This document shows positions 31,863 to 53,966 of a stretch of 64,000 bases of DNA, piece after piece; the first letter of the stretch is position 1, and every line of letters begins with the position of its first letter. A program made the position numbers and the translations under genes. The notes beneath the pieces are model-generated. The model was not told the DNA's origin. It was given only the letters and a program-made list of their open reading frames with translations, and did not search any database. The stretch is from Candidatus Poribacteria bacterium (GTDB taxonomy: Bacteria; Poribacteria; WGA-4E; WGA-3G), in contig JAPOZO010000030.1 in the NCBI GenBank assembly GCA_026706025.1, positions 1 to 64,000 of the forward strand, given 5' to 3'.

Positions 31863-32495
31863 CTATTCACCGCCGTTGCTGCCGGCCCAGAGGGCACCGC
31901 GCTCCAACAGCGTCCCAAACATCTCATGCTGACATGCTGAGGCATCGTGACCGAGTGCAAGGTAGAAAACTTTACCTTCACCCCAATTCTTTGTCCATGC
32001 CACGGGGGCTGCGGCACCTTTCCACAAGGCTGATGCCAGTATATGATTCCGAGGATCATAATCGAGGATGTACTGCTCGTCCGTCACGACGAATTCGTCG
32101 AGCCCTTCCGTAATTTCGTGTTCACTATCAACAATGCTAACCTGATAGTCGCGGTAACGTGGATGTGTAACGAAATAGCCACCTACCATTGAACGGTATT
32201 CTGGGCAGCCGCGAAACGAGTCTGCCGCCGAATGTATACCGACGTATCCCTTACCCGAAGCAATATGATTGAGCAAACCGTTCTTCTGTGCGTCCGAAAT
32301 CTCGCCTATTGTGTAATAGAAAACGATGAGATCATACGGATCCAAGTTCGGTGAAACAAGCGCGTCAAGGTCTTCCTCGACTCTCGTGATCTCAAATTCA
32401 TCTCGCTGTGAAAGCACATTCACGATTGCGTCGCTACAACCTTTCCAATCGTGAATTGCGCCACCCGCAAAAACAAGTGTGTTGATTTTTCCCAT
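31863..32495 (-). CDS. ThuA-domain protein
   Basis: ThuA-like proteins are class I glutamine-amidotransferase-fold proteins linked to sugar (trehalose-like) metabolism. The 210 aa product shows VFAGGAIHDWKGCSDAI, FYYTIGEI, the typical GKGYVGIHSAADSF elbow, GGYFVTHPRYRDYQV and KVFYLALGHDASA. It is complete for the domain, with no signal peptide. AGGAGG precedes the ATG with good spacing. Genes of this family abound in polysaccharide-degrading bacteria. The substrate is unknown. Confidence 0.9.
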   Translation of the reverse strand: MGKINTLVFAGGAIHDWKGCSDAIVNVLSQRDEFEITRVEEDLDALVSPNLDPYDLIVFYYTIGEISDAQKNGLLNHIASGKGYVGIHSAADSFRGCPEYRSMVGGYFVTHPRYRDYQVSIVDSEHEITEGLDEFVVTDEQYILDYDPRNHILASALWKGAAAPVAWTKNWGEGKVFYLALGHDASACQHEMFGTLLERGALWAGSNGGE

Positions 32496-32740: not shown

Positions 32741-34804
32741 ATGGAACGAAGAAGCGTTTTATCTCGATCCCTTATCGTAGTTGCTGTACTCATCGGCATA
32801 TTTGTTCTACTTTCATTGCGCCGGTGGAACATCGATCACCCGCGACTGACACCGCGTACAGTTGAAATCCCAAGCGCAATTCGTCAGAAATTCTCAGAGC
32901 CACCACACAAACCTGAGCTGCTCGCAACGTCAGAGCACGGTAGTTCTATTGACGCTGTCGCATTTTCACCTATGGATGCGTCACTTGTTGCCAGTTCATC
33001 TGTGGTGGGTCGTGCAGCACGGACAGTAAAGTTGTGGAATTTAAACGGGACGAGCGAACCTGTGGAAGTACTCGGTGGTAATACTTTCGCTTTTTCTCCG
33101 GATGGCGGATCCCTTGCTATTGCAAGTGGCGTGAGGGCGAGTCGGTTGTGGCATATAGATACGAAGAAATCTATCAGTAACTTTGGTTCAGGTGCTTATG
33201 AAATCGCCTTTTCGCCAGATGGACGATGGATTGCAAATGATAGTATCGGGGTGAAGTTGTGGGACGCTCGCACGCCGAGAGCGGTAACAGCAGGTGTTGT
33301 TTTGTCGCGTGGGGGCTCTGTGGAGAAACTTGCCTTTTCACCCGATGGCAAGTTATTGGCCATCGCGAAACGAATCAGTGGCGACGTGACTATTTGGGAT
33401 ATTGAGAGTCAACAGGTTATCAAAACACTAAAGCAAGATGCAAGGTGGACGCGGGCTCTCAAGTTTTCGCCGAACATGGAGAATCTATTGCTTGCCGTGG
33501 CAGACAATAACGGAAACATTGAACTATACACCTTGCCGGACTGGCATCTCCACGCCACAATCACAACAGCACCTGTCAAGGATCTTGCCTTTACACCGGA
33601 TGCAAAGATACTTGTCAGTGGTGGTATTGGAGATGTAGAGTTTTGGAATTTGGAGAGTGGTGAGCGTATCGCCTTTATAGAAGGCCCCACCCGTTGTTGG
33701 GCTAATGCTGTTGACTTCTCAGCAGATGGAACCGCACTCGCAAGTGGTTGGAGTGATGGCGTCTTGCGCGTCTGGAATACTTCGCAGTATCTGAACCTAC
33801 AGGAATCAGTTTCCCAAGATGTCGTACGGTTAATCTATTTTCTGCCGAGTGACCGCGCCGCTCAGCCGGATATCACCGAGAAGTTGGACAAGTTGATAAA
33901 AGAGGTGCAGCAGTTTTACGCCGACCAGATGGCGCACCACGGATTCGGAAAAAAAACCTTTACTTTTGAGAAAAATGAGGACGGGCGCGCGAAGGTGTAT
34001 CTTGTGGAAGGTCAGTACACTGATAAATACTACCTTAAGGGAACCTCTGGAAAAATCAGAAAAGAAATTAATGAGAAATTTGATGCGTCAAAAGATGTCC
34101 ATCTTATTGCTGTGGATATCAGTAGTGAAAGAATTAACCTTCAGCGTGAAGGCGTAATCGCCGTAGGTGGTCTCACACCCGTTGGACTCGACTATAAAAA
34201 AGGCTTATGGAGCGCACGAGCAGGCGGTGCTATTGTGCCAGCGTCCGGCGATGATGGGTTCAATTGGGAAACGATTGCCCATGAACTCGGACACGCCTTT
34301 GGGTTAAAACACGATTTTCGGGATGCCAGCTACCTGATGTCCTACGGTCAAGCCCAAAAGCGGTTGTCCGAAGGCAATGCTGAATGGTTGGATAAAAGCC
34401 GCTACTTTAATCCCGGTCGACTGTTTTTTAATCAACCCGCCGCAATTGAGATAGTCCCTTTCTCGGTCAATTCTTCTAAGTTGAAAAACCTCCGATTTCA
34501 TCTCAAAGATGTTGATGGTCTCCATCAAGCAATGTTGCTAATCCCTCCGACTGCGGATACGCCACCGCCAGGGTACCAGTGGGACAAAAACCCAGAAGAC
34601 AATAAGAGAAGTTGGAAAAGGCAGCAGAGAGGAAAATCCTTTGTGCTACATGACTACCGGTCTCTGGATGCCCAGAAAGAGGTTACTGTTGAATTTAACC
34701 TACCAGAACCGAGAGAGAACCGTCTTGAACTTCGGATTATTGATGTACACGGCAATATCACCTATCGGAGGTTTGATCTCAAAGAGATAAGCAGAAAAAA
34801 ATAA
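32741..34804 (+). CDS. Membrane-anchored WD40 protein with metzincin-type zinc protease domain (array gene 1)
   Basis: The 687 aa product starts with a signal-anchor helix (about 6-23, SLIVVAVLIGIFVLLSL). WD40/PD40 blades follow (about 60-350, repeated AFSPDG and LWD motifs). A ~130 aa linker (VVRLIYFLPSD, FYADQMAHHGFGKKTFTFE) leads to a protease domain with H514-E515-x2-H518-x5-H524 (HELGHAFGLKHD) and a Met-turn-like YLMSYG. A beta-sandwich tail follows. The HExxHxxGxxH plus Met-turn plan is that of metzincins. The anchor suggests a periplasmic or surface location, with the propeller perhaps docking substrates. AAAGGAAT precedes the ATG. Confidence 0.85.
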   Translation: MERRSVLSRSLIVVAVLIGIFVLLSLRRWNIDHPRLTPRTVEIPSAIRQKFSEPPHKPELLATSEHGSSIDAVAFSPMDASLVASSSVVGRAARTVKLWNLNGTSEPVEVLGGNTFAFSPDGGSLAIASGVRASRLWHIDTKKSISNFGSGAYEIAFSPDGRWIANDSIGVKLWDARTPRAVTAGVVLSRGGSVEKLAFSPDGKLLAIAKRISGDVTIWDIESQQVIKTLKQDARWTRALKFSPNMENLLLAVADNNGNIELYTLPDWHLHATITTAPVKDLAFTPDAKILVSGGIGDVEFWNLESGERIAFIEGPTRCWANAVDFSADGTALASGWSDGVLRVWNTSQYLNLQESVSQDVVRLIYFLPSDRAAQPDITEKLDKLIKEVQQFYADQMAHHGFGKKTFTFEKNEDGRAKVYLVEGQYTDKYYLKGTSGKIRKEINEKFDASKDVHLIAVDISSERINLQREGVIAVGGLTPVGLDYKKGLWSARAGGAIVPASGDDGFNWETIAHELGHAFGLKHDFRDASYLMSYGQAQKRLSEGNAEWLDKSRYFNPGRLFFNQPAAIEIVPFSVNSSKLKNLRFHLKDVDGLHQAMLLIPPTADTPPPGYQWDKNPEDNKRSWKRQQRGKSFVLHDYRSLDAQKEVTVEFNLPEPRENRLELRIIDVHGNITYRRFDLKEISRKK

Positions 34805-34814
34805 CGAGCCTAAT

Positions 34815-36107
34815 ATGCAATTCAAAAAACCGTTACTGCTGTTCATCGCGTCTGTTTTTGTTCTCGGTATCTTGGGATTTTCCATCTGGTATCGGTGGAA
34901 CACCGATCAGAAATTAGCGCAACAACGAATTCCAGAACTGACACCGAGTGCCGAGTTTAATCACAGATCCCCTCAGATTGGAGATGTTGCAATTTCACCT
35001 GTCAACTCAGATCTGATCGCGAGTGTGGGTCCTATAACTTCAGACACCTTTACAAGCAACGGTGAGGGTAGCGTCCTAAAAGCGTGGGATCCACGTGACA
35101 ATAAGGGTAGCAGCATAAAAGTATGGAATCGCAATAACACAAAAACTCCAGTCCTAACGCTGATCGACCACCGCGGCAAAGACGATCGGGGTTTCAACAT
35201 GATTGACTATATCGCGTTTTCGGCGATGGGTGAACGGCTTATCAGTAGAAATGCTTCCACACTTGTGTTTTGGGATGCAGCTTCAGGTGCTAAAATTGAT
35301 GTTTTTGATATCCCCTATGGCACAGCGGCTTTTTCACCCAACGGACACCTCCTCGCGACTGCCTCTAACGACATCAAACTCTGGGATATCCGCAACCTCA
35401 AAGAGATAAAACCGATAGTCGTATTACCACCAAAGATGGGCGGACAGCCGCTGTCACATGAAGAGGCACGGTCAGCCCGTCATCACAATGAGACAATCTA
35501 CGAGAGATATGATTTGGTTGACTTTTCATCAGATGGAAAGTGGATCGCCGCTGGTGGAAGCATGAACAAGTTTAATAACATAGGGCAAGGTGTGGTGAAA
35601 ATCTGGGATCTACAACACAGGCAACTTGTCAAAATTTTTCCAAGAGAACTGCCGAAAGGTGTCGAAATTAAACCCAAAACGGATTACACCGATATCCAAT
35701 CCATTAAATTCTCTCCGGACAACCGTTTTTTTGCGAGTGTAGGTTCGTACGGATACACGATATGGACACTTCCAGGGTGGTATATCCACTGCAATGTCCG
35801 CGCGCAAACCGCTGGCGAACCGATATTTTTTTTACTTGATGATGGGACACAAATCGGCACCGGTGTCGGTGAACCAGTTCAGTTCTTCAAAGATCTGGCA
35901 TTTTCACCTGATGGTAAGATGTACGCAGTTGCAGAGAGTAGGACAGTAACCCTCTACTCAACTGAAAGTGGTACCCCTATCGCCTTACTGAACGGTGGCA
36001 GATTTTTAGACGTAGTGAAATTCTCACAGGACGGTAGCACACTTGTCAGTGGAGGCATTGATGGCATTGTCCGGCTTTGGGGTGTAGGAGGGCTAAATGA
36101 AAAGTAA
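34815..36107 (+). CDS. Membrane-anchored WD40 protein lacking the protease domain (array gene 2)
   Basis: The 430 aa product has an N-terminal anchor (about 5-24, LLLFIASVFVLGILGFSIWY) and WD40/PD40 blades to the end (AFSPNGHLLATASNDIKLWD, FSQDGSTLVSGGIDGIVRLW). It stops exactly where the paralogues continue into linker and protease domains. Blades carry longer loops than its neighbours. It could compete with or regulate the proteases, or be a partial gene. It begins 10 bp after gene 1, and its end overlaps gene 3 by 11 bp. No frameshifted protease remnant follows, because gene 3 begins at once. Confidence 0.8.
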   Translation: MQFKKPLLLFIASVFVLGILGFSIWYRWNTDQKLAQQRIPELTPSAEFNHRSPQIGDVAISPVNSDLIASVGPITSDTFTSNGEGSVLKAWDPRDNKGSSIKVWNRNNTKTPVLTLIDHRGKDDRGFNMIDYIAFSAMGERLISRNASTLVFWDAASGAKIDVFDIPYGTAAFSPNGHLLATASNDIKLWDIRNLKEIKPIVVLPPKMGGQPLSHEEARSARHHNETIYERYDLVDFSSDGKWIAAGGSMNKFNNIGQGVVKIWDLQHRQLVKIFPRELPKGVEIKPKTDYTDIQSIKFSPDNRFFASVGSYGYTIWTLPGWYIHCNVRAQTAGEPIFFLLDDGTQIGTGVGEPVQFFKDLAFSPDGKMYAVAESRTVTLYSTESGTPIALLNGGRFLDVVKFSQDGSTLVSGGIDGIVRLWGVGGLNEK

Positions 36108-38154
36108 AAGATTGTTCCTGTTGTTCGTGATTTTGGCTATAGTTGTTGGCGGCGTAGTATTTTTTAAGGTGCGTCCACAGTATCAAGCTTTGGGCCCGCA
36201 GGAGTTCGCGAAACTTCCCGAAAAGCCTGCGCTCCTTGCTAAGTTTAACCACGGGCCCAGTCCTATTAACTCTGTGGTATTTTCACCAGTCGATGCTTCT
36301 CTTGTCGCAAGTGCAGGTATTCATGGAATCATAAAGTTGTGGAACATAAATAACACAGACCTTCCATTGAGGATCCTCAATCACCCCGCAAATTATACAT
36401 TCATTGCTTTTTCTCCAAATGGAGAATTGCTGGCGAGTGCAGGCAATGGTGAGGAACTCATTTTGTGGGATGTCGCCTCAGGAAACAAAGTTAACACTAT
36501 TAAGGGCAATTTTGGATCTTTTGCCTTTTCGCCAGATGGAGATCAATTGGCGACATCCTATAAGTATGGAAAGGAAGTGAAACTCTGGAATATTCGGAAT
36601 CCAAAGAAAATCATTGAGGTGGCTACCCTACCCTTCGATGAAGCAAAAAGAGTCAATAGTTATACATGTACAGTAGACATTTCACCAGATGGAAAATTGA
36701 TTGTTATTGGATACGCGAACGGAACGGTGAACGTTTGGAATCTACAGACGAAACAACATGTAAAAACATTGAAAACGACTTTTGCAGAGATGGAGATTCT
36801 CAAGTTTTCACCAAACAACAGATTCTTGGTATGTAGCGGCCCTGAGGGTTACATGCGTGACGGTATCCGCTATAAAGGGAACACCGCTATGCGCTACATT
36901 ATGTGGTCATTACCTGAGTGGCAACGCCACAACGAGGTGCAAAATGGATATATTGAAAATTTTACCATTTCGCCTGATGGGAAAATGTGTGCCCGGGCAA
37001 ATACATATCTTGGGTTTCTTTCTCGTAGAGGAGTAGAAATCTGGTCAACTGCAAGTGGAGCAACGATTACCTCACTACCGACCAAGGCGCGGGATGTTGC
37101 CTTCTCACCCGATGGAAAAATGCTCGCGACTGCTGGTGAAGAGGGTATTCTCCGGTTGTGGGAATTTACACCGCAGCAATTAACATATACCACTGCGCCT
37201 GCTGATGTTATACGGATAGTTTACCTCCTGCCAAAGGATAAAGAACCACGGATAGGTATCTCGAAGAAACTGGACAAATCAATAAGAAAGGTTCAAGACT
37301 TCTATGCCAAAGAGATGGAACGCCACGGATTCGGTAGAAAAACTTTTGGGTTTGAAACGGATGAAAATGGCAGGGTAAAGATTTATTTTCTTAAAGAGGG
37401 ACAAATTATACATTATGATATGTCAAACGGTATCTGGCTCGCAGTAGCAGAGGACCTCTCAGGATCTATTGCTTGGGGACCGAAAATAATCGATGCCGGT
37501 CATAACCAGACATTTGCATACCCAAAAAATAATGTGGACCGTGTTAAAGACAATATCTGGATGGACGGAATTGAAGGTGCCTTTCATGGTAAACTTATAT
37601 TTTATGCCGCTAAAGTTTTCAATTGGAAAACTATCGCGTATACACTTAGGGAGGCATTCGGTTTGTCCTATGATGATTTTGTATATGAGCCAGACGCTTT
37701 GAAACGTTTCTTGTCCCGTGTAAACAGTATGATGCCTTGGGAAATAGACAGGGAAAAATTGTCCAAATGTGAAGCCGAGTGGTTGGATAAGAGTCGTTTC
37801 TTTAACCCAAACCAACCCTTCTTTAATAGATGCCCCGAAATTGAAATGAGTGTGTCCGAACCGGATGTAAAAAATTCGCGACGTTTTCAATTTGAGATTG
37901 CAGATGAAGATGGGATATATCAAGCACAACTGTTTGTATCAAGACAAGTTCAGAATCGATATATGACATGGCAAAGGGAGTTTCATGAAGGATGTCATCT
38001 GTTAAACGGTAAAAAGAGGGCTATGGTTGAATTTAGGATAACTGATGCCGCTGTCAAAGATGTTGAACTTCGGATGATTGATATATTTGGTAACATTGCG
38101 TCAAGAAAATTCCAAATTAAGGACGAGACATCGGAATCACCAGAAAACCTTTAG
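36097..38154 (+). CDS. WD40 protein with catalytically dead metzincin-like domain (array gene 3)
   Basis: The 685 aa product shares the full plan of gene 1: anchor (about 6-22), propeller, linker (VIRIVYLLPKD, FYAKEMERHGFGRKTFGFE), protease-like domain and tail (FRITDAAVKDVELRMIDIFG). The zinc motif reads YTLREAFGLSY at 515-525, where active paralogues have HELGHAFGLKH. Both metal-binding His of HExxH, the catalytic Glu and the third His are therefore all replaced (Y515, T516, E519, Y525). Flanking residues are conserved, so it aligns without gaps there. It is a predicted pseudoprotease with an intact frame. GGAGGGCTAA precedes the ATG, inside gene 2. Confidence 0.85.
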   Translation: MKSKRLFLLFVILAIVVGGVVFFKVRPQYQALGPQEFAKLPEKPALLAKFNHGPSPINSVVFSPVDASLVASAGIHGIIKLWNINNTDLPLRILNHPANYTFIAFSPNGELLASAGNGEELILWDVASGNKVNTIKGNFGSFAFSPDGDQLATSYKYGKEVKLWNIRNPKKIIEVATLPFDEAKRVNSYTCTVDISPDGKLIVIGYANGTVNVWNLQTKQHVKTLKTTFAEMEILKFSPNNRFLVCSGPEGYMRDGIRYKGNTAMRYIMWSLPEWQRHNEVQNGYIENFTISPDGKMCARANTYLGFLSRRGVEIWSTASGATITSLPTKARDVAFSPDGKMLATAGEEGILRLWEFTPQQLTYTTAPADVIRIVYLLPKDKEPRIGISKKLDKSIRKVQDFYAKEMERHGFGRKTFGFETDENGRVKIYFLKEGQIIHYDMSNGIWLAVAEDLSGSIAWGPKIIDAGHNQTFAYPKNNVDRVKDNIWMDGIEGAFHGKLIFYAAKVFNWKTIAYTLREAFGLSYDDFVYEPDALKRFLSRVNSMMPWEIDREKLSKCEAEWLDKSRFFNPNQPFFNRCPEIEMSVSEPDVKNSRRFQFEIADEDGIYQAQLFVSRQVQNRYMTWQREFHEGCHLLNGKKRAMVEFRITDAAVKDVELRMIDIFGNIASRKFQIKDETSESPENL

Positions 38155-38280
38155 CTTCAAAAATCATATCATAAACAGATTGTATAACGAGCACCGAGGA
38201 TTTCATAAAATAAAATACTATTATGAGATAATCGCTAACATCTGCTATTTCATTATTTCTAATGCTAAAAGGAAAATGAA

Positions 38281-40248
38281 TTGCGTTCCAAAAAACTTTT
38301 ACCTTTCTATGTGTTAATCACGCTTCTTGTCTCTGGTCTCATCGGTCTCTATATCTTTTGGAAAATCGACCCATCGAACCAAAAATTTGCGCAACCACCA
38401 GAAAAACTCACGCCGATTGCCGAGTTCAACCACGAAGCTCGGATTTACGATGTCGCTTTTTCGCCTGTGGATGCCTCGCTTGTCGCGGGTGCCGACGATA
38501 ATAACACAATAAAGTTGTGGCACTTCGCCAACACTGTAGCACCTCAAGCAATTCTCAGGGGGCACATTGGTCCGGTTAAATCAATTGCTTTCTCACCTGA
38601 TGGGAAATTGCTCGCGAGTGCGGGTTTCTTTTATAGTCGGGTTATATTATGGGATGTGCTTTCGGCAACGAAAATCAATTCCCTTGAGACTCCCGCCATA
38701 GCAGTCGCTATTTCGTCGGATGGGTACTATTTGGCGACTGCCGGTAGGCACTTGAAACTCTGGGACATTCGTAATCCAAAGGAGATAGCGGAGGTTGAGA
38801 CGTTCCCACACGATAAATCGGTGCTACTTTGGACGGTTAACTTCTCACCCGATGGGAAGTGGCTCGCGTGCGGAGATGAAAATGGCAGACTCAAAGTTTG
38901 GGATATACAGCATAAGAAACTTGTCCGATCCGTGAAAGCAAATTCCGATGAAATCCGATCTGTTCGATTTTCTGCTGACGGTCGCTTTCTCGCGAGTACT
39001 GGATTATATAGCCATACGCTATGGCGTTTACCAGAGTGGCAACTTCACGGCAAGATAATTGGCGAAGGGATAGGCGTAGATGTCGATTTTTCTCCTGATG
39101 GCAAAATGTACTCGACCCCTAATCTCAGAGGAGTGATCCTCCGTTCCGCTACGAGTGGTGCGCGAATTGTTTCGCTTGAAAGTACTACAGGCGCAATCAG
39201 ATCTATTGATTTTTCACCAAATGGGAATATGCTTGCCAGTGGTGGTAAAGATGAGACGCTTCGTTTGTGGAATGTTTCAGCACAGCAATTAACAAGGATT
39301 GACACCACCCAACACGATGTCGTTCGACTGATCTACTTTCTTTCCAAGGAGCGTCCACCGCAGCGCAGCATCATTGTCAAATTGGATAGACTGATAAGAC
39401 AAGCCCAACGTTTTTACGCCATTCAGATGAAAAGCCATGGGTTTGAGAGAAAAACCTTTACTTTTGAGACTGATGCCCATCGTAAAGCAAAGGTATATCT
39501 CCTCAAAGCACAACGTCCTGACGATTATTATCACGAAGATACTATTAAAAAGATCAGAACAGAGGTCACCAAACATTTTGATCGCTCAAAAAACATCCTG
39601 CTCATTGCTGTAGATATTAAAAGTGGTATATTTTTTGGCAAAGATAGCACAACATCTGGGGTAGGTGGTGTTACACCCTTTACATACGACAATGAACTGA
39701 ACAGATCACTCCATGGTGGGAGTGCTTTCGTTTCTGCTTCCCATAACGATTTAGAGTGGGATACGATTGCCCATGAACTCGGGCACGCTTTTGGTTTACA
39801 ACACGATTTTCGTGGACGTAATCGCAGCATTATGTCTTACGCAAGTGGAAGGTATGAATTGTCGAAATGTGCTGCTGAATGGTTGGATAAAAACCGATTC
39901 TTTAATCCGAATCAACCCTTTTTTGATAAACGCGCCACAATAGAGATGCTCTCACTCTCCAATGCTTCTGATGCCCCCACCCTCCAATTTGAGGTTACTG
40001 ATGAAGATGGGCTTCATCAAGTCCAACTGATTGTGCCAACAACCCGGCGCGACCCCGTCACGAAACAAGGTTTCAAGCTGCACAGTTGTCAATCGCTAAA
40101 TGGAGCGGAAAAGGCTACAGTTACATTTGAATTGCCAAAAACTTCTGTCAAGGAAATTGAACTCTGGATGATGGACCTGCACGGAAACATTGTATGGAGA
40201 GAATTTGACCTCAGCAAGGATTCAGCACAACTGTCTGAAGAGCCTTAG
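38281..40248 (+). CDS. Membrane-anchored WD40 protein with metzincin-type zinc protease domain (array gene 4)
   Basis: The 655 aa product has an anchor (about 8-24, LITLLVSGLIGLYIF), a WD40 propeller, and a linker (VVRLIYFLSKE, FYAIQMKSHGFERKTFTFE). The protease domain has H498-E499-x2-H502-x5-H508 (HELGHAFGLQHD) and Met-turn SIMSYA. The tail is a beta domain. It is more compact than gene 1 but equally intact at the active site. The start is TTG 38281 after AAAGGAAA; no ATG is in frame nearby. It is separated from gene 3 by 126 bp and is followed 22 bp later by coaD. Confidence 0.85.
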   Translation: MRSKKLLPFYVLITLLVSGLIGLYIFWKIDPSNQKFAQPPEKLTPIAEFNHEARIYDVAFSPVDASLVAGADDNNTIKLWHFANTVAPQAILRGHIGPVKSIAFSPDGKLLASAGFFYSRVILWDVLSATKINSLETPAIAVAISSDGYYLATAGRHLKLWDIRNPKEIAEVETFPHDKSVLLWTVNFSPDGKWLACGDENGRLKVWDIQHKKLVRSVKANSDEIRSVRFSADGRFLASTGLYSHTLWRLPEWQLHGKIIGEGIGVDVDFSPDGKMYSTPNLRGVILRSATSGARIVSLESTTGAIRSIDFSPNGNMLASGGKDETLRLWNVSAQQLTRIDTTQHDVVRLIYFLSKERPPQRSIIVKLDRLIRQAQRFYAIQMKSHGFERKTFTFETDAHRKAKVYLLKAQRPDDYYHEDTIKKIRTEVTKHFDRSKNILLIAVDIKSGIFFGKDSTTSGVGGVTPFTYDNELNRSLHGGSAFVSASHNDLEWDTIAHELGHAFGLQHDFRGRNRSIMSYASGRYELSKCAAEWLDKNRFFNPNQPFFDKRATIEMLSLSNASDAPTLQFEVTDEDGLHQVQLIVPTTRRDPVTKQGFKLHSCQSLNGAEKATVTFELPKTSVKEIELWMMDLHGNIVWREFDLSKDSAQLSEEP

Positions 40249-40270: not shown

Positions 40271-40783
40271 ATGCCGAAAAAAATCGCTATCTTCCCCGCC
40301 AGTTTCGACCCTGTCACCAACGGACACGCTGACCTCATTGACCGTATTTGCAACCTTGATGTCTTTGACCAACTCATCGTTGCTATTGGTGTAAATCCAG
40401 AAAAACCAGCGCGTTTTACGCTTGAGGAGCGCACTGAGATGCTTAAAACCGTCATTGAACCGTATCCGCAAGCCACAATTGATGGTTATACCGGGTTGAC
40501 GGTACATTATGCACAAACACGTGGCGCGTGTGCTATCATCCGAGGACTCCGCGAAATCTCCGATTTTGAATGGGAATTCAAGATGGCACGGATGAATCAG
40601 CAGATCGCACCAGACATTGATACCGTCTTTATGATGGCAAATACACAATATGCGCACATTAGTTCAACGCTCGTGATGGAGGTCGTCCAGATGGCACAGC
40701 AAAAGTTAAGCGAGAAGAAGTTACAAGAGATGGTGCCAGCAATTGTGGTCGAATTTATCAAGAAGAAATTTGATGTATTATAA
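40271..40783 (+). CDS. coaD: Phosphopantetheine adenylyltransferase
   Basis: CoaD transfers AMP to 4'-phosphopantetheine in coenzyme A synthesis. The 170 aa product shows the nucleotidyltransferase core FPASFDPVTNGHADLI with the T/HxGH motif. It also shows LRGLREISDFEWEFKMARMN (as RGLR...DFE) and ISSTLVMEVVQ, the family's ISS motif. I start at ATG 40271 (GAAAGGAAATCATA upstream), not the longer frame that overlaps the array gene. The length is slightly above the usual ~160. Confidence 0.95.
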   Translation: MPKKIAIFPASFDPVTNGHADLIDRICNLDVFDQLIVAIGVNPEKPARFTLEERTEMLKTVIEPYPQATIDGYTGLTVHYAQTRGACAIIRGLREISDFEWEFKMARMNQQIAPDIDTVFMMANTQYAHISSTLVMEVVQMAQQKLSEKKLQEMVPAIVVEFIKKKFDVL

Positions 40784-52487: not shown

Positions 52488-53966
52488 ATGATGAAAAACC
52501 GCTTCTACCCAATCTTAATAACCCTGTTTATGACACTTTCCTTCACAAATATCGGTTGTGTCCAGGATTCGCCGCAATGGCCTTTACCTGAAGGGGCTAA
52601 AGCACGACTCGGGAAAGGAAGCACACATGAGATTAAGTATTCACCAGATGGTGCCACGCTGGCAGTAGCGAGTAGTATCGGAATTTGGCTCTACGATGCC
52701 GAGAGTGGTGAAGAGGTGTCGCTGCTGACAGGGCATACGAATAAGGTCAGTAGCATGGCGTTTAGCCCCGATGGACAGACAATCGCAAGCATAGGGGATT
52801 GGGATGACGACACGATCCGTCTGTGGGATGTTGACATAGAGCAACAACTGAAAACACTCACTGGGCATACGGGTGATGTCAATAGCATATCGTTTAGCCC
52901 CGATGGACAGACAATCGCAAGCGCGAGTGAGGACGGTACCATCCGTCTGTGGGATGTTACTACAGGGCGGAACCTGAAAACAACACTCATCTGGCATGCA
53001 GATAGGGTCAGGAGCGTGTCGTTTAGTCCTGATGGACAGACAATCGCAAGCATAGGGGATTGGGATGACGACACGATCCATCTGTGGGACGTTGACATAG
53101 AGCAGCAACTGAAAACACTCACTGGGCATACAAGTGCGGTCAATAGCGTATCGTTTAGCCCCGACGGACAAACGATCGCAAGCGCGAGTGAGGACGACAC
53201 GATCCGTCTGTGGGATGTTGGCACAGGGCAGCAACTGAAAACACTCATTGGGCATACGGATAGGGTCAGGAGCGTGATGTTTAGCCCCGACGGACAAATG
53301 ATCGCAAGCGCGAATGAGGACGATATCATCCGTCTGTGGGACGTTGATACCGGTGGAGAGATAAAAACTCTTATAGGGTATACGAGTGATGTTGAGAGCG
53401 TAGCGTTCAGTCCTGATGGCAAGATGATCGCATCAGTGTATAAGTCTGATATCGTGCGGCTGTGGCATTTTGACGCGGCTTATTCGCAAATACCATTTTC
53501 ACAATATTCTCTTCTTGACGACCTATTGCCTTTTGAGCCTACCGTTAGTTTGTGGGACGTTGTTACTGGTAGAGAGATATTGACACTCACTGGACATGCG
53601 GGCCGAGGTGAAGTCTTGAGCGTGTCGTTTAGCCCTGATGGAAATACGCTCGCAGGCGGGAGTTCGGAAGGTACGATCCGTTTGTGGGACGTTGACACGG
53701 GGCAGCAACTGAAAACACTCACTGGGCATACGGATGATGTCAATAGTGTATCCTTTAGCCCCGATGGAAACACACTCGCCTCGGTGAGTGATGACGACAC
53801 TATTCGTTTATGGGACGCTGCCACTGGCAGAGAGATACTGATACTCACTGGGCATACGGATGATATCAATAGCGTATCCTTTAGTCCCGATGGAAATACG
53901 CTCGCATCAGGGAGTAGGGACGGAACCGTGCTGCTGTGGGAACTCGCGCCGACACTCGTGGAGTAG
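52488..53966 (+). CDS. WD40 repeat protein, possible lipoprotein
   Basis: The 492 aa product starts with a signal sequence (FYPILITLFMTLSFTNIGC), where the Cys near 25 could be lipidated although the lipobox (TNIGC) is imperfect. About ten WD40 blades follow, nearly uniform: HTxxVxSVSFSPDGQTIASxSEDDTIRLWDV. They are highly similar at DNA level; for instance 52761-52870 and 53022-53131 differ at about five of 110 positions. A propeller or a double propeller would form outside the inner membrane. No catalytic domain. An in-frame secretion-tail remnant lies just downstream (54006-54185). Confidence 0.88.
   Translation: MMKNRFYPILITLFMTLSFTNIGCVQDSPQWPLPEGAKARLGKGSTHEIKYSPDGATLAVASSIGIWLYDAESGEEVSLLTGHTNKVSSMAFSPDGQTIASIGDWDDDTIRLWDVDIEQQLKTLTGHTGDVNSISFSPDGQTIASASEDGTIRLWDVTTGRNLKTTLIWHADRVRSVSFSPDGQTIASIGDWDDDTIHLWDVDIEQQLKTLTGHTSAVNSVSFSPDGQTIASASEDDTIRLWDVGTGQQLKTLIGHTDRVRSVMFSPDGQMIASANEDDIIRLWDVDTGGEIKTLIGYTSDVESVAFSPDGKMIASVYKSDIVRLWHFDAAYSQIPFSQYSLLDDLLPFEPTVSLWDVVTGREILTLTGHAGRGEVLSVSFSPDGNTLAGGSSEGTIRLWDVDTGQQLKTLTGHTDDVNSVSFSPDGNTLASVSDDDTIRLWDAATGREILILTGHTDDINSVSFSPDGNTLASGSRDGTVLLWELAPTLVE

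Follow-up and report, generated by a model that had tools for sequence, protein, structure and literature searches.

Membrane-anchored WD40 propeller proteins with live, dead and missing OgpA-type metzincin domains in a tandem array of Candidatus Poribacteria

Introduction

Poribacteria are described as a predominant phylum of the sponge extracellular matrix, and the abundance of WD40 and leucine-rich repeat (LRR) domains among their proteins was noted earlier, without a link to proteases of the OgpA type (PMC3909097). In one genome of this phylum (Candidatus Poribacteria bacterium, assembly GCA_026706025.1), we analyzed the first 64,000 nucleotides of contig JAPOZO010000030.1, hereafter the window, and focused on four paralogous genes in a row that encode membrane-anchored WD40 proteins. 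Genes 1 and 4 of this array include an intact metzincin-type protease domain, gene 2 has none and gene 3 has a dead one. What could two proteases and two such relatives do side by side? An initial annotation of the DNA proposed a single multi-component protease system at the cell surface, and added that no described family was known to join a WD40 propeller to a metzincin in one envelope protein. Here, we assign the protease domain to a known family and trace the array through the genus and the domain through the phylum. We consider it probable that genes 1 and 4 encode tethered, exported zinc endopeptidases with propeller binding platforms, and that genes 2 and 3 encode a coupled pair of non-catalytic propellers.

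Results

Genes 1 and 4 encode metzincins of the OgpA/AMUC_1438 family

The initial description of four anchored WD40 paralogues, with protease domains intact in genes 1 and 4, missing from gene 2 and dead in gene 3, is confirmed by the open reading frames, sequence motifs and homology. WD40 (PF00400) matches are present in all four proteins (Pfam; E 1e-16 to 1e-43), each of which begins with a few basic residues followed by one strongly hydrophobic helix, and the Foldseek matches of the gene 1 and gene 3 models are seven-bladed WD40 structures. Genes 1 and 4 combine the zinc motifs HELGHAFGLKH and HELGHAFGLQH with Met-turns reading SYLMSYG and RSIMSYA, respectively; they thereby show the marks of metzincin clan MA(M), a helical HExxHxxGxxH/D with a Met-turn downstream. 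Gene 3, which lacks these marks, is homologous to the protease over the whole domain, with YTLREAFGLSYD standing where the zinc motif would be, and the gene 2 reading frame ends right after the propeller.

Pfam and NCBIfam returned short metzincin matches only, leaving the family unnamed; in Pfam, genes 1 and 4 match Reprolysin_4, Reprolysin_5 and PF12044 above the curated cut-offs. It was a search against PDB sequences that named the family. With phmmer, the gene 1 domain matched OgpA (6Z2O) at E 1.2e-11 and AMUC_1438 (8DEK) at E 3e-9, and a profile built from 15 relatives matched AMUC_1438 at E 1.7e-15 and OgpA at E 1.6e-13. The matches span the catalytic region and, as judged by sequence comparison, place homology to these O-glycopeptidases far above chance. 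Both reference enzymes consist of a metzincin catalytic domain and a beta-sandwich (PMC7518263, PMC9513282), and in the array proteins the homologous catalytic domain is likewise followed by a beta-sandwich. The protease is a member of the known OgpA/AMUC_1438 family and not an orphan metzincin. Two other readings were considered and set aside: the Pfam matches of these domains, taken up to E 5, include no M60-like mucinase profile (PF13402), and chance origin of the zinc motif is excluded by the homology over the full domain.

An AlphaFold2 (AF2) model of gene 1, with a mean predicted local distance difference test (pLDDT) score of 82.9, places HELGH in a zinc-site helix (residues 509-519), as the initial annotation had expected of a genuine metzincin. 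This helix is preceded by strand 362-368, helix 378-399, strand 419-423, helix 435-443 and strands 453-458, 475-482 and 489-500, a beta-alpha-beta-alpha-beta-beta-beta order that agrees with OgpA (PMC7518263), and is followed by a later helix (544-552) and the strands of the beta-sandwich (568-679).

The fusion of protease and repeat domains is a habit of the order

We then surveyed Poribacteria genomes for the family. Of 73 genomes in the order to which the source belongs, 71 have an OgpA-type domain, at 1-20 copies each; of 12 genomes elsewhere in the phylum, 2 have it, at one copy each. The source genome alone holds about 15 copies, whose architectures, assigned by Pfam and tblastn matches, include WD40-protease (the array, C20, C63, C65 and C73), protease-WD40 (C64, C69), protease-LRR (C34, C56, C59, C88) and a stand-alone domain (C20); in C66 (L059, 1849-4407), a divergent, partial OgpA-like N-terminus shares one protein with LamG, cohesin, dockerin and FlgD-Ig domains. 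Dockerin and cohesin domains thus occur in this genome on proteins with OgpA-type protease domains (L054, L059), and the genome contains hundreds of WD40 matches.

By motif counts at 19 sampled loci of other genera, a WD40 propeller stands in front of the protease at 15 and LRRs stand behind it at 4; therefore, fusion of this protease to repeat domains is a conserved habit of this Poribacteria order. No account of a WD40-metzincin fusion emerged from our literature searches (WD40 and metalloproteases in Poribacteria; sponge-symbiont mucinases), and to that extent the novelty claimed for the array holds; its protease, however, belongs to a known family whose fusion to WD40 or LRR is widespread in the order. 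Most of the 19 loci encode classical signal peptides, and dispersed relatives mostly have SFAQ-type signal peptides, in contrast to the uncleaved N-terminal helix of the array copies. The array members and copy C63 of the same genome form a single clade (100/100), and the array is a membrane-anchored offshoot of these order-wide fusions. Secreted WD40-OgpA proteins from several genera (L111-L114, L118, L119, L123, L124, L127, L128) also have in common an extra C-terminal part of ~207-215 amino acids (aa), in which WD40 or LRR motifs were not found.

Copies are gained and lost at one slot

Across the genus, the array occupies a slot between a thuA-like gene, which adjoins recX and alaS, and coaD. 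Both borders lie on one contig in 31 of 38 genomes. Twelve of these slots, with gaps of about 160-640 bp, contain no family gene, and the other 19 contain one to four. Gene 4 stands alone in six genomes (G002, G010, G011, G016, G025, G027), and a gene 1-like copy stands alone in G019, G021, G029, G032 and G034, the content of G019 and G032 being judged from gap size and domain matches. Genes 1 and 4 occur together without the others in two genomes (G001, G018). Genes 2 and 3 are present with gene 1 in G017, with gene 4 in G023 and by themselves in G035 and G026, and G008 shows genes 2, 3 and 4 as far as the contig edge. The window has all four, and G012 has genes 1, 2 and 3 plus an additional copy, 3b: there (L092, 7233-9307), the first gene 3 is split by a frameshift, through either decay or an assembly error, and a second, full-length dead copy follows. 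Genes 1 and 4 have thus been gained and lost independently, in a birth-and-death of copies at the slot.

Genes 2 and 3 form the only conserved unit of the array

The gene-order survey that the initial annotation had called for revealed one unit that stays together. In a genus-wide search, gene 2 was found in seven genomes, which are exactly those with an assembled gene 3, and wherever both are assembled it lies immediately 5' of gene 3; G004 has broken pieces of gene 3 at contig edges. The two reading frames overlap by ATGAAAARTAA in six species, in each of which a GGAG- or GGGG-type ribosome-binding site lies inside the end of gene 2, and the seventh species also has an 11-nt overlap. In G026, the protease and beta-sandwich of gene 3 have been lost precisely and in frame, such that the propeller (77% identical) joins directly to the C-terminal tail KDETPKSPENP, with coaD next. 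This tail is the end of full-length gene 3 proteins elsewhere, and its version in the window is IKDETPESPENL. Both genes of the G026 pair therefore encode bare tethered propellers, and the live protease, the dead protease and the deleted domain are all represented in living species.

The dead domain is relaxed but remains under purifying selection

All gene 3 copies fall into one clade (100/100) that is sister to gene 4 on a long stem, so catalysis appears, most simply, to have been lost once in the gene 3 lineage. Gene 3 has lost the zinc ligands and the catalytic Glu, and the first zinc His (His514) is Tyr in six of six full-length copies. Of 54 positions that are invariant across 19 active array copies, gene 3 keeps 33; 13 of 15 lost invariant positions are in the catalytic part, clustered at the zinc site, and the beta-sandwich retains 15 of 17.

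To gauge selection, we used medians of pairwise Nei-Gojobori (NG86) omega, the ratio of nonsynonymous to synonymous divergence, which ignores shared ancestry and for which synonymous divergence (dS) is in part near saturation. Median omega in the catalytic part is 0.17 for gene 1, 0.18 for gene 4 and 0.27 for gene 3; in the propeller it is 0.26-0.28 for the active copies, 0.23 for gene 3 and 0.39 for gene 2. Live copies thus constrain the protease above the propeller, and gene 3 does the reverse. Its dead domain is relaxed but not free, and purifying selection persists. Genes 2 and 3 appear from their sequences to be a pair without cutting activity that is retained across species.

Coordinates and surroundings of the array

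The positions of the array genes and the slot borders are collected in Table 1. The TTG start of gene 4 is kept in most of its orthologues, and an AGGA-type site precedes it in the window. In other occupied slots, too, the final array gene is followed at a short distance by coaD, which is essential and acts in coenzyme A synthesis, and the array and coaD may be co-transcribed. Elsewhere in the window, an open reading frame at 52488-53966 (492 aa) has WD40 repeats resembling those of gene 4.

Table 1. Array genes and slot borders in the window (aa, amino acids).
Feature	Position	Strand	Description
thuA-like gene	31863..32495	-	left border of the array slot
Gene 1	32741..34804	+	687 aa; membrane helix aa ~6-25; WD40 propeller aa ~55-350; OgpA-type metzincin catalytic domain aa ~360-560, HELGHAFGLKH at aa 514-524; beta-sandwich aa ~565-680
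Gene 2	34815..36107	+	430 aa; membrane helix and WD40 propeller only
Gene 2/gene 3 junction	36085..36107	+	Shine-Dalgarno-like GGAGG within the end of gene 2; 11-nt overlap; ATGAAAAGTAA
Gene 3	36097..38154	+	685 aa; membrane helix, propeller, dead OgpA-type domain, conserved beta-sandwich
Gene 4	38281..40248	+	655 aa; TTG start at 38281; membrane helix, WD40 propeller, intact OgpA-type metzincin with HELGHAFGLQH at aa 498-508, beta-sandwich
coaD (phosphopantetheine adenylyltransferase)	40271..40783	+	right border of the array slot, 22 nt after gene 4

Discussion

Where these proteins would act is suggested by their anchor. On our reading of the sequences, none of the four array proteins has a signal-peptidase site, such that the N-terminal helix would stay uncleaved with an N-in topology, and the proteins are likely to be exported because secreted relatives bear the same domains behind signal peptides. 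A gene for a TonB-type outer-membrane receptor adjoins the array, which implies that an outer membrane is present; together with an uncleaved helix, this suggests an inner-membrane location facing the periplasm, and leaves the surface exposure originally proposed unsupported. In the mechanism that we favor, genes 1 and 4 would be zinc-dependent, membrane-tethered endopeptidases of the OgpA/AMUC_1438 family, in which the propeller between anchor and protease may hold a substrate or a partner. As translationally coupled tethered propellers whose protease domain is gone or dead, genes 2 and 3 would form a non-catalytic binding unit (a scaffold, substrate presenter, decoy or regulator) that the active copies at the slot would not require. 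More specifically, the two could be a bacterial pseudoprotease pair, co-translated and selected to present substrate to, or to restrain, live OgpA-type enzymes that the same cell has elsewhere in its envelope, a proposal that we make tentatively.

Several observations weigh against this account. The gene 1 helix has positive charge on both flanks, making its topology ambiguous. The Met-turn loop of the gene 1 model is of low confidence (pLDDT ~58), and the Foldseek top 50 for each of the two full-length models contained no metzincin, the lists being filled by WD40 propellers, so that the support for the protease fold comes from sequence homology, the helix with the zinc motif and the succession of strands and helices. 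Further, gene 3 evolves faster than the live copies and is frameshifted in G012, and its slow decay is possible.

If decay were the whole story, genes 2 and 3 would be functionless relics of tandem duplication. The elevated omega of the dead domain relative to live ones, the G012 frameshift, the G026 domain deletion and the contig-edge fragments in G004 are what such relics would show. We nevertheless regard this as unlikely, given frames that stay open in several species at a median dS near 1, omega of 0.2-0.5 by region (pairwise, with dS partly saturated), an overlap preserved together with its ribosome-binding site, and a domain deletion that is clean, stays in frame and spares both propeller and tail. 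At the other extreme, all four proteins might belong to one surface protease complex in which the propellers come together and bring substrate to genes 1 and 4, a view to which the tandem order, the common architecture and anchor type and the coupling of genes 2 and 3 lend some appeal. Yet the four genes are not kept together across species: gene 4 alone, genes 1 and 4 as a pair and genes 2 and 3 by themselves each fill slots in the genus, and twelve slots are empty. The independent gain and loss of genes 1 and 4 makes the survey evidence against an obligate four-part machine, and we consider such a complex, the core of the initial proposal, quite improbable.

The substrate raises a separate pair of alternatives. 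The array might be an O-glycopeptidase system, in which genes 1 and 4 cleave mucin-like glycoproteins of the sponge next to O-glycans while the propellers and the dead copy bind the glycoprotein. Its nearest solved relatives are O-glycopeptidases that require an O-glycan (PMC7518263, PMC9513282), and copies of the domain have multiplied in a single order of a phylum described as predominant in the sponge extracellular matrix (PMC3909097). The activity characteristic of that family is cleavage N-terminal to an O-glycosylated Ser or Thr. The proteases also have a conserved aromatic before the zinc motif, a Trp at -5 from the first zinc His, and Tyr430/431, aligned near the sugar-stacking Tyr116 of OgpA, which every active copy keeps and dead copies have lost. 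However, the aligned positions do not preserve the sugar-pocket aromatics of OgpA (Phe166, Trp199) and AMUC_1438 (Tyr171, Tyr217); in the sequence alignment, the Trp is shifted by one residue and the Phe position is non-aromatic in most copies. In addition, relatives of AMUC_1438 come mainly from environmental bacteria and have unknown substrates (PMC9513282), and a periplasm-facing anchor would miss intact mucin. O-glycan specificity is thus only a lead from sequence, and the system built on it is possible but doubtful. Alternatively, genes 1 and 4 could be general envelope proteases that process or clear proteins of their own cell, with no role on host proteins. The anchor type and predicted periplasmic side would suit this role, and the many WD40 proteins of the genome may be scaffolds of its own envelope, but a slot content that varies from zero to four genes, with an expansion specific to the lineage, is not what a housekeeping protease would show, and we think this explanation rather unlikely.

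Whichever substrate applies to these putative tethered endopeptidases, the family assignment places an abundant, undescribed class of Poribacteria proteins in an enzyme family represented in gut mucin degraders. It suggests that Poribacteria use many OgpA-type proteases, equipped with WD40 or LRR binding parts, to attack proteins that are perhaps glycoproteins and, if true, would give a testable job to the long-noted 'eukaryote-like' WD40 and LRR proteins of the phylum (PMC3909097). The slot, with its zero to four copies, also displays in nature the successive stages of an active protease, an inactivated one and a propeller alone; the surprising part is that a pair of deactivated propellers has been retained, with intermediate stages in living species.

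Comparison with known systems

OgpA (AMUC_1119; PDB 6Z2D, 6Z2O, 6Z2P) of Akkermansia muciniphila, which cuts mucin beside O-glycans (PMC7518263), resembles genes 1 and 4 in its HExxH...H metzincin domain, its Met-turn and the beta-sandwich directly after. The array proteins differ in the membrane helix and WD40 propeller in front, in not keeping the Phe and Trp of its sugar pocket at aligned positions, and in the presence of one dead and one domain-less paralogue. AMUC_1438 of the same species (PDB 8DEK, 8DF2; PF12044-like) is the best profile match, in keeping with the PF12044 matches of the window genes. By contrast with the anchored, WD40-bearing array proteins, it is secreted, has a C-terminal carbohydrate-binding module and lacks WD40, and its two sugar-site Tyr residues are likewise not conserved at aligned positions of the array proteins. 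For the propeller, the best Foldseek match is PkwA (5YZV), a prokaryotic WD40 protein with seven blades. The WD40 domains described from bacteria are chiefly neighbors of kinases or fused to them (PMC5587647), whereas those of the array accompany metzincins.

Closest overall are the secreted WD40- or LRR-fused OgpA-type proteins of the same order (e.g., L049, L053, L058), whose protease domains are about 35-50% identical to those of the array and many of which share the trait of a WD40 propeller before or after the protease. They differ from the array proteins in having cleavable signal peptides instead of an anchor, in lying outside the array and, often, in the extra C-terminal part of ~210 aa. 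As an analogy in working, without homology, the retention of gene 3 recalls the iRhoms of eukaryotes, pseudoproteases in which a membrane-tethered dead relative is kept beside live ones.

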